64,000 nt of DNA, from assembly GCF_016107705.1 (NCBI RefSeq), contig NZ_JAEHGC010000003.1:248001-312000 (forward strand), written 5' to 3'. The stretch comes from Neobacillus cucumis. GTDB lineage: Bacteria > Bacillota > Bacilli > Bacillales_B > DSM-18226. This document shows positions 16,045-17,792 of the stretch, one piece after another. The notes under the pieces are model-generated. The model was not told the origin of the DNA, ran no database searches, and saw only the letters and a list, made by a program, of their open reading frames with translations. How positions within the stretch are numbered: position 1 is the first letter of the stretch; each line of letters starts with the position of its first letter. Position numbers and translations under genes: made by a program.

Positions 16045-16089
16045 TAAACAGAACATATGTTTTTACTTTTTCGGAAGGGGTACACCACA

Positions 16090-16494: not shown

Positions 16495-16498
16495 AAAA

Positions 16499-16521
16499 GA
16501 CCAGCATAATTTATGCTGGTC
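16499..16521 (-). terminator. ssrA terminator
   Basis: 11-bp perfect stem GACCAGCATAA/TTATGCTGGTC with a single intervening base in the centre, followed on the minus strand by TTTTTTATATTT. It lies 17 bp past the tmRNA CCA end and also abuts the stop codon of the convergent endonuclease gene. Confidence 0.88.
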
Positions 16522-16538
16522 TTGTATCCACCTATGTA

Positions 16539-17174
16539 TGGTGGAGACGGCGGGACGTGCGTTTCCATGCTTTCGTCATGGCACTGACTATATCTTGAAC
16601 CTGCAATCTTACAGGTCCTCCGGCGTCTTATGCGAACCATAAATTTACCTTTTAGGTGAGGATTCGCATCCTAGTACTACCACTCTCATCATGGCAGCCT
16701 ATAAGTCGATACACGGCTGTTGAATTACTCCACATACCGCTCGGCATTGCCTTATCGCATTTTTGCGACTTAGGTTTCACCGATAAAGCCGAATTATCAC
16801 TTGTGTGTTACCACACAAGGCGACTAATTACTAATCGAACCCGCGTCCAAAGATATCGGCACTTAAGCTTCTACGAGTGTAGTCGACATATTGGCGCTTC
16901 GCTGAGCCATATGCCTGTCGACAGGCGTCCGGTCAGCTAGCCTGGTTGTTCTCTTCCTTCATCCTCAGGCGGTGGAATCCGGCGTAGCCCACTTAGAGTG
17001 AGTCCCTTACCCTACCACATGGGCAATGGAGGGAGGAACCGCTATGCAGTATTAAGCTGCGAAAGCGAGGTTGTTGTTAGTTTTGCCAGTTATGGCTTTG
17101 ACGTTTTAACGAGGCCGATCCCCTCGACTCGCAACCTAAGCTCAAACTACCCCTGTCGAATCCGTAGCGTCCCC
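16539..17174 (-). ncRNA. ssrA: tmRNA (SsrA), gene interrupted by a group I intron
   Basis: Transfer-messenger RNA for ribosome rescue, partner of SmpB encoded 150 bp upstream. The 5' end GGGGACGCTACGGATTCGAC starts at 17174 and pairs with CGTCTCC-ACCA at the 3' end, with the typical G3-U pair; CCA is encoded. The tag reading frame at 17087-17052 starts with GGC and encodes GKTNNNLAFAA then TAA. With the tRNA-borne alanine the tag is AGKTNNNLAFAA, ending in the AA recognised by ClpXP. The T-arm is split: exon 1 ends GGGTTCGAT at 16834 and exon 2 is TCCCGCCGTCTCCACCA (16555-16539). Joining restores a normal T-loop and gives a mature RNA of 358 nt, as expected for Bacillus. Confidence 0.95.
16556..16833 (-). 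mobile_element. Group I intron in the T-loop of ssrA
   Basis: 278-nt ORF-less insertion between the halves of the tmRNA T-loop. It has group I hallmarks: exon U before the 5' splice site pairing as U-G with the guide (exon CGAT with intron GTCG, nt 10-13); a P2 hairpin with an 8-bp stem (CTTGTGTG/CACACAAG) and GTAA loop; P4-P5 core TCGGTGAAACCTAAG and TAAGGCAATGCCGAG (16741-16784), very like the core of cyanobacterial tRNA introns; P7 strands GACTTATA (16707-16700) and AAGATATAGTC (16596-16586, the classical S element); a P9 hairpin CCATG/CATGG; and a terminal G. Splicing should leave an intact tmRNA. Subgroup not assigned. Confidence 0.92.
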
Positions 17175-17324: not shown

Positions 17325-17792
17325 CTACATCTTTTGACGTTCTCGGAATGCACGCTCAATTTCACGCTTCGCTTCTTTTTGTTTCAGAGACTCACGCTTA
17401 TCATAATTTTTCTTACCCTTTGCAAGGCCAATTAAAACCTTACAAAAGCCATTTTTCAAATAAAGCTTTAATGGTACAAGCGCATAGCCCGCTTCCTTTG
17501 TTTCACCAATTAGCTTATTGATTTCACGTTTATGAAGCAATAATTTACGGGTTCTTAATGGATCATGATTAAAGCGATTCCCTTGTTCATATGGACTGAT
17601 ATGCATCCCGAAAAGAATAGCTTCGCCATTTTGAATTCTGGCATATGAATCCTTTAGGTTTACTTTACCCGCACGGATTGACTTGATTTCAGTTCCCTGC
17701 AAAACGATGCCCGCCTCATATGTTTCTTCAATAAAATAATCATGATAAGCCTTTTTGTTCTGCGCAACAACTTTTCCTTCACCTTTTGGCAT
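17325..17792 (-). CDS. smpB: SsrA-binding protein SmpB
   Basis: A 155-residue tmRNA partner that delivers tmRNA to stalled ribosomes. Conserved features are the OB-fold start [41 protein letters not shown], and the C-terminal tail [25 protein letters not shown], which becomes helical in the mRNA channel. It lies 87 bp downstream of rnr (separated by a terminator) and just upstream of ssrA, the standard Bacillus order. The full-length ATG start ([15 protein letters not shown]) matches the family. Confidence 0.97.

Follow-up and report, generated by a model that had tools for sequence, protein, structure and literature searches.

The ssrA locus of Neobacillus cucumis, a member of the Bacillaceae, described here lies in a 64,000-nt stretch of contig NZ_JAEHGC010000003.1 (positions 248,001 to 312,000; hereafter the window), where the gene for transfer-messenger RNA (tmRNA) carries a group I intron in its T-loop and is met on its 3' flank by a convergent gene for a free-standing LAGLIDADG endonuclease. 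That tmRNA genes can carry a group I intron at this site is an already known principle, as a sequence-only reading of this DNA had rightly noted: a 2025 tmRNA database holds 883 unique intron-form genes, mostly interrupted at T-loop position 7 and mostly from Bacillota, and such introns are known from 21 phyla (PMC11915505). The locus shares with those position 7 introns the gene, the T-loop site, the intron type and the size class. The available text of that source counts endonuclease genes within introns (36 of the 883, about 4%) and is silent on free-standing ones beside ssrA, whereas here the gene lies outside the intron. In the literature we searched, outside which most subscription papers lie, no free-standing endonuclease beside ssrA was described; the neighbouring endonuclease and its association with the intron are the news of this work.

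The ssrA intron and the neighbouring endonuclease

The sequence-only reading had proposed a tmRNA gene split by a T-loop group I intron, and this is borne out by Rfam matches, by the joining of the exons in ARAGORN and by covariation; its coordinates, lengths, U.G pair and terminal G also proved correct on reading the sequence. The tmRNA model RF00023 matched positions 16832-17166 of the minus strand at 156.8 bits, the final T-arm/acceptor part of the model being unaligned there, and RF00028 matched 16565-16843 on the same strand (E 7.9e-10) at 44.2 bits, in permissive mode only and under the curated gathering score of 50. As read from the sequence, the intron ends in G and follows a U at -1, placing the splice junction at GGGTTCGAT / TCCC, after T-loop position 7; this U pairs with a G in P1, and the conserved core P3-P9, including P7, is present. 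ARAGORN recognised no tmRNA in the unspliced stretch and, on the joined exons, a single standard tmRNA of 358 nt with the tag GKTNNNLAFAA.

For the covariation test, a P1 to P9 group I structure of 71 pairs was written by hand and applied to 63 homologous introns, a set thinned down from the 126 loci whose introns measure 250-300 nt. Across the 63 introns 98.4% of cells were paired, against only 32-38% in slid controls, and both-sided changes were seen in 31 of the 71 pairs, compared with 13.8 in shuffles and 3-10 in slid versions. P3 covaries strongly; P7 is invariant in the 63 introns and so provides no evidence by itself. On these grounds the 278-nt insert is a genuine group I intron, predicted to be self-splicing, and the spliced ssrA is a complete tmRNA, with splicing predicted to occur in the cell.

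The endonuclease family shows the I-MsoI/I-CreI fold (predicted local distance difference test score 92.8 for the relative P0003), with an alpha-beta-beta-alpha-beta-beta-alpha arrangement and a catalytic acid that is invariant in 63 aligned sequences; the bI3 maturase (2ab5) and I-AniI (1p8k) were also among the fold matches. I-MsoI and I-CreI are encoded in chloroplast 23S rRNA introns, and some LAGLIDADG proteins act as maturases. The present family differs from these two homodimeric enzymes in having its gene outside the intron, and the identity to them is 16-25% in structural alignments. Uninterrupted copies are under constraint, with a median ratio of nonsynonymous to synonymous substitution rates (dN/dS) of 0.13 over 19 pairs with dS of 0.05-1.2. 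The protein is likely a site-specific DNA-cutting enzyme, presumably working as a homodimer. The copy in the window itself has a LAGLIDADG helix one Ile short relative to its aligned relatives and may be inactive, perhaps representing a stage of decay.

Table 1. Features of the ssrA locus in window coordinates.
Feature	Position	Strand	Description and basis
ssrA, whole gene	16539-17174	minus	Split gene with a 278-nt insert
ssrA 5' exon, 341 nt	16834..17174	-	Acceptor 5' strand to T-loop, ending ...GGGTTCGAT; sequence reading and Rfam tmRNA match
Group I intron, 278 nt	16556..16833	-	At T-loop position 7; RF00028 match and covariation
ssrA 3' exon, 17 nt	16539..16555	-	TCCCGCCGTCTCCACCA, CCA encoded; sequence reading and ARAGORN on joined exons
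LAGLIDADG endonuclease gene, 134 aa	16090..16494	+	Free-standing, single-motif, outside the intron; sequence and fold comparison
LexA/SOS-type box	16051..16062		GAACATATGTTT, one mismatch to GAACN4GTTC; starts 39 nt before the endonuclease start codon
Likely ribosome-binding site of the endonuclease gene	16073..16080	+	Read from the sequence
Terminator-like hairpin separating ssrA from the endonuclease gene	16497..16523		Perhaps common to both convergent genes; sequence reading
smpB	17325..17792	-	Host gene adjoining ssrA (context); PF01668

Association of intact endonucleases with intron-bearing ssrA

The distribution of the two features was examined in three samples, in which an endonuclease was called uninterrupted when it covered at least 118 of 135 positions with no stop, a definition that the window's own copy would pass and that is no proof of activity. 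In the first, made up of 200 genomes related to that of the nearest relative and searched genome-wide, 88 carried a full-length match to intron-bearing ssrA and 53 an endonuclease match, 34 of the latter uninterrupted. All 34 uninterrupted copies belonged to intron-bearing genomes, against none in the 112 others (Fisher 9e-15), and within the 12 genera having both intron states and an uninterrupted copy the chance of this pattern is about 2e-7. Endonuclease remnants occur in three of the genomes that lack a full intron match (G032, G112 and G141); two more of the 112, G135 and G180, had low tmRNA scores, and neither had an endonuclease match. Where a genome had both features they shared a contig in 48 of 50 cases, always convergent, at a distance from the CCA of 30-213 nt in 44 of the 48 and of 605, 1159, 6286 and 15624 nt in the others. 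A contig scan confirmed 124 endonuclease loci, and among the best 80 of these 67 were convergent with an intron-bearing ssrA at 33-605 nt, while 10 were not so placed and yet had an intron-bearing ssrA in the same genome (10/10). Two further loci of the best 80, L087 and L088, are intron-bearing, and the only intronless case, L075, lacks residues 1-17, including the motif, and has a stop.

The second sample comprised 369 Gammaproteobacteria, with intron presence called by BLAST with one gammaproteobacterial intron and counted where matches reached past the T-arm, which gives a lower bound biased to the relatives of that intron. Endonucleases were found in 18 genomes and introns in at least 22; the endonuclease was present in 16 of the 22 intron-bearing genomes against 2 of the 347 others (Fisher 3e-21), and all 10 uninterrupted copies fell in intron-bearing genomes, with 0 in the 347. 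In 14 of the 16 both features were read on one locus, G452 and G293 being cut by contig ends. The gammaproteobacterial gene also occupies the 3' flank, 54-248 nt after the CCA, but is co-directional with ssrA, in contrast to the convergent arrangement in Bacillota. The two copies beside intronless ssrA are broken: L215 has a stop and has lost its C-terminal part, and L221 has frame changes, one of them within the motif.

The third sample covered 398 genomes from the phylum of L087, eight of which had the endonuclease. Four copies were uninterrupted, all four beside and convergent with an intron-bearing ssrA; two remnants lay beside intronless ssrA and one 1160 nt from an intron-bearing ssrA, and G825 had a weak relative, with no ssrA in its 1.8-kb locus. 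A set of 46 genomes from the class of L087 had four endonucleases, all beside intron-bearing ssrA; its two uninterrupted copies are the same as two in the third sample, and a Group I family search of these genomes missed the introns of G211 and G225, so that it yields no base rate for that class. In the three samples together, 48 of 48 uninterrupted copies were in intron-bearing genomes. That such an endonuclease is an ordinary neighbour met by chance beside one more tmRNA intron, of a kind known in 21 phyla (PMC11915505), is contradicted by these counts and is hardly credible.

Remnants and an SOS-type box

Among 20 intronless Bacillaceae ssrA loci, chosen from intronless genomes, C-terminal endonuclease remnants adjoined three (L125, L126 and L131), with a fourth, weak match at L121 (E 0.001), and every copy seen beside an intronless ssrA was broken. 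Such remnants likely reflect precise intron loss after an endonuclease-bearing stage. Of 31 scanned intron-bearing loci with no endonuclease match at E 1e-6, five keep a clear C-terminal remnant; several weak matches in the remnant scan (scores 7-12) were left uncounted.

Upstream of the Bacillaceae endonuclease genes, a GAACN4GTTC box with at most one mismatch was found in 48 of 79 cases, 17 of them perfect, compared with a mean of 3.1 (largest 11) and 0.07 perfect in 200 shuffles, and with 110 of 1424 random 200-nt windows from the same loci, 6 perfect. The box starts 25-75 nt before the start codon in 47 of 49 boxes (L087 included), and its inner four bases fit RNRY, which we take to be the inner form of the SOS box, in 38 of 48. 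The B. subtilis SOS box is GAACN4GTTC, and GAACnnnnGTTT has also been searched for in clostridia (PMC4234289); the window box matches this clostridial form. One-mismatch boxes are not enriched over the whole window (8 against 6 expected), and the window box thus rests on its position and conservation. We infer from the sequence that the Bacillaceae endonuclease would be under LexA control, entailing LexA binding and induction by damage; our literature search found no SOS-controlled homing endonuclease. The gammaproteobacterial form, CTGTN8ACAG, was also tried and rejected, its only perfect instance, at L088, lying inside a terminator-like stem.

A proposed split mobile element and its alternatives

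Since intact endonucleases were found only in company with introns in distantly related bacteria, the pair looks like a split mobile element, and we consider it probable that the intron and the LAGLIDADG gene on the 3' flank of ssrA spread by collaborative homing. The observations that enter this interpretation are the identity of the intron, the fold of the endonuclease, the association in three samples, the broken copies at intronless ssrA and the SOS-type box. From these we infer a cycle in which a homodimeric endonuclease, which LexA would hold at a low level in Bacillaceae, would be produced on DNA damage or DNA uptake and would cut intronless ssrA at or near the T-loop. Repair of the break from an intron-bearing copy would import the intron together with the short 3' exon and the adjacent endonuclease gene, as a unit; the inserted intron would destroy the target, conferring self-protection, and would splice out so that tmRNA still forms. 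After fixation the endonuclease would decay, and the intron might be lost later.

Free-standing endonucleases beside genes whose introns lack an endonuclease gene of their own are known from F-CphI, next to the psbA intron of cyanophage S-PM2, where the intronless gene is reported to be cleaved and the intron to protect (PMC6083498), and from further phage cases of collaborative homing, including T7-like phages (PMC3984707, PMC10448857). As far as the available text of these sources goes, those cases are from phages, whereas the present one involves bacterial chromosomes, an RNA gene, many genera and an SOS-type box; moreover, F-CphI belongs to another nuclease family and its cleavage was shown, while cleavage by the LAGLIDADG protein is a prediction.

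Several findings weigh against this interpretation. No uninterrupted endonuclease was found in 54 of the 88 intron-bearing relatives, and 38 had no match at E 1e-6, so the intron can be kept without its partner; because the homing cycle predicts frequent loss, many such genomes are nevertheless expected. No box was found at 25 of 66 open Bacillaceae copies, nor a comparable one at the gammaproteobacterial endonucleases, and no clear dyad was seen at the T-arm insertion site, the best even-centred symmetry nearby comprising 4-5 of 10 pairs; this pseudo-palindrome was not used as evidence. Furthermore, a tight common history of intron and endonuclease is not seen. In a comparison of 51 loci (host tree from smpB plus rnr, short alignments, fast trees, 2000 resamplings), the host tree is rejected by the intron data and by the endonuclease data, but each of these data sets also rejects the tree of the other and agrees better with the host tree. 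Endonuclease distances track host rnr (0.59) nearly as well as the intron (0.64); with rnr controlled for, endonuclease and intron distances retain a partial correlation of 0.42 (p 0.001). Mapped onto a host tree built from 107 loci, a non-random sample, the intron state requires at least 16 changes and the state of the uninterrupted endonuclease at least 31; no independent contrast had the two changing in opposite directions, but few pairs were informative (about 6 of 23; median p 0.03).

The disagreement of the two trees, the vertical signal in both and the position of the gene outside the intron would also suit an independent endonuclease that homes into the ssrA 3' flank by a target of its own, keeping company with the intron through inheritance and linkage. 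We regard this as unlikely, given that it predicts uninterrupted copies beside intronless ssrA, of which 0 of 112 and 0 of 347 genomes had any, and given the two gene orientations in distant classes and the broken copies that persist beside some intronless ssrA. Less probable still, and in our view quite improbable, is that the protein is a maturase aiding splicing of the intron. The bI3 maturase and I-AniI fold matches speak for such a role, but the same 38 relatives keep their introns with no match, five of the 31 scanned retain just a C-terminal remnant, and a constant splicing helper would hardly be expected under an SOS-type box.

Returning to collaborative homing, a broader claim, to which we give an even chance, is that ssrA introns, most of which contain no mobility gene, owe their movement between bacterial classes to a dedicated LAGLIDADG endonuclease encoded outside them and SOS-controlled in Bacillaceae; together they would be a chromosomal, damage-inducible collaborative-homing element in an RNA gene, going through repeated gain, endonuclease decay and precise intron loss. 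For the spread of tmRNA introns over 21 phyla, with about 4% having their own endonuclease, an outside partner is a testable answer. If true, this would be the first collaborative-homing pair on bacterial chromosomes, as far as the literature searched shows, and through the SOS-type box the movement of the intron would be tied to DNA damage or uptake. The homing cycle can be studied in a natural series of loci, in which the endonuclease is intact, decayed or gone and the intron present or absent; the same series bears on how an RNA gene that the cell needs can tolerate a parasite.

Flanking sequences, allelic variants and additional tmRNA genes

The host genes smpB and rnr lie upstream of ssrA. 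In seven loci (L033, L034, L046, L054, L065, L083 and L086) Tn7-like genes (TniQ, TniB, Mu-type transposase; by Pfam in L054 and L086, by eye in the others) occupy the place of ssrA, parting it from the endonuclease gene, which suggests that Tn7-like elements insert at the 3' flank of ssrA. In L206 (1930-1955) and L218 (1902-1927) the ssrA 3' end (GGGTTCGATTCCCGCCGCCTCCACCA) recurs in uninterrupted form beyond the endonuclease gene, with similar sequence after it in both loci; it may be a scar left by an island or by the invasion itself. Pieces of the 3' part of the intron downstream of ssrA in L124 and L135, where ssrA is uninterrupted, and in the intron-bearing L171 could similarly be scars of ssrA replacement or island integration. 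A second endonuclease remnant lies about 6 kb away in G243, and the introns next to the free-standing endonuclease genes of L041 and L088 are longer, at 430 and 453 nt. A C at -1 (GAC/TCC) was seen in 12 of 28 intronless ssrA against 0 of 127 intron-bearing loci, some genomes being counted twice; such alleles would lack the customary splice-site U and could be naturally resistant.

No endonuclease homologue was found in a plasmid search, and an NCBIfam search gave no match above cut-off. Phage Lacusarx (L225, 2929-3817) carries a homologue, 41% identical and annotated as hypothetical or HNH, which overlaps with the beginning of the tmRNA gene annotated in this phage.

The sequence-only reading had further held that this organism needs splicing for ribosome rescue. 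Relatives, including the nearest, carry extra intronless tmRNA genes, which makes this claim unsafe for the group: 10 such genes were found between or beside tRNA genes in six genomes, namely the nearest relative (G001) and five chosen for listed second ssrA copies (G004, G011, G019, G031 and G035). This diverged type (L139-L146; 76-82% identical, one or two per genome) is a possible backup tmRNA. Its CCA is apparently not encoded and its tag is GKQNNNFAFAA or alike. Second ssrA copies are listed in further genomes beyond the six read, and the arrays mostly run tRNA-Ser, tmRNA, then tRNA-Asn, Thr or Lys.
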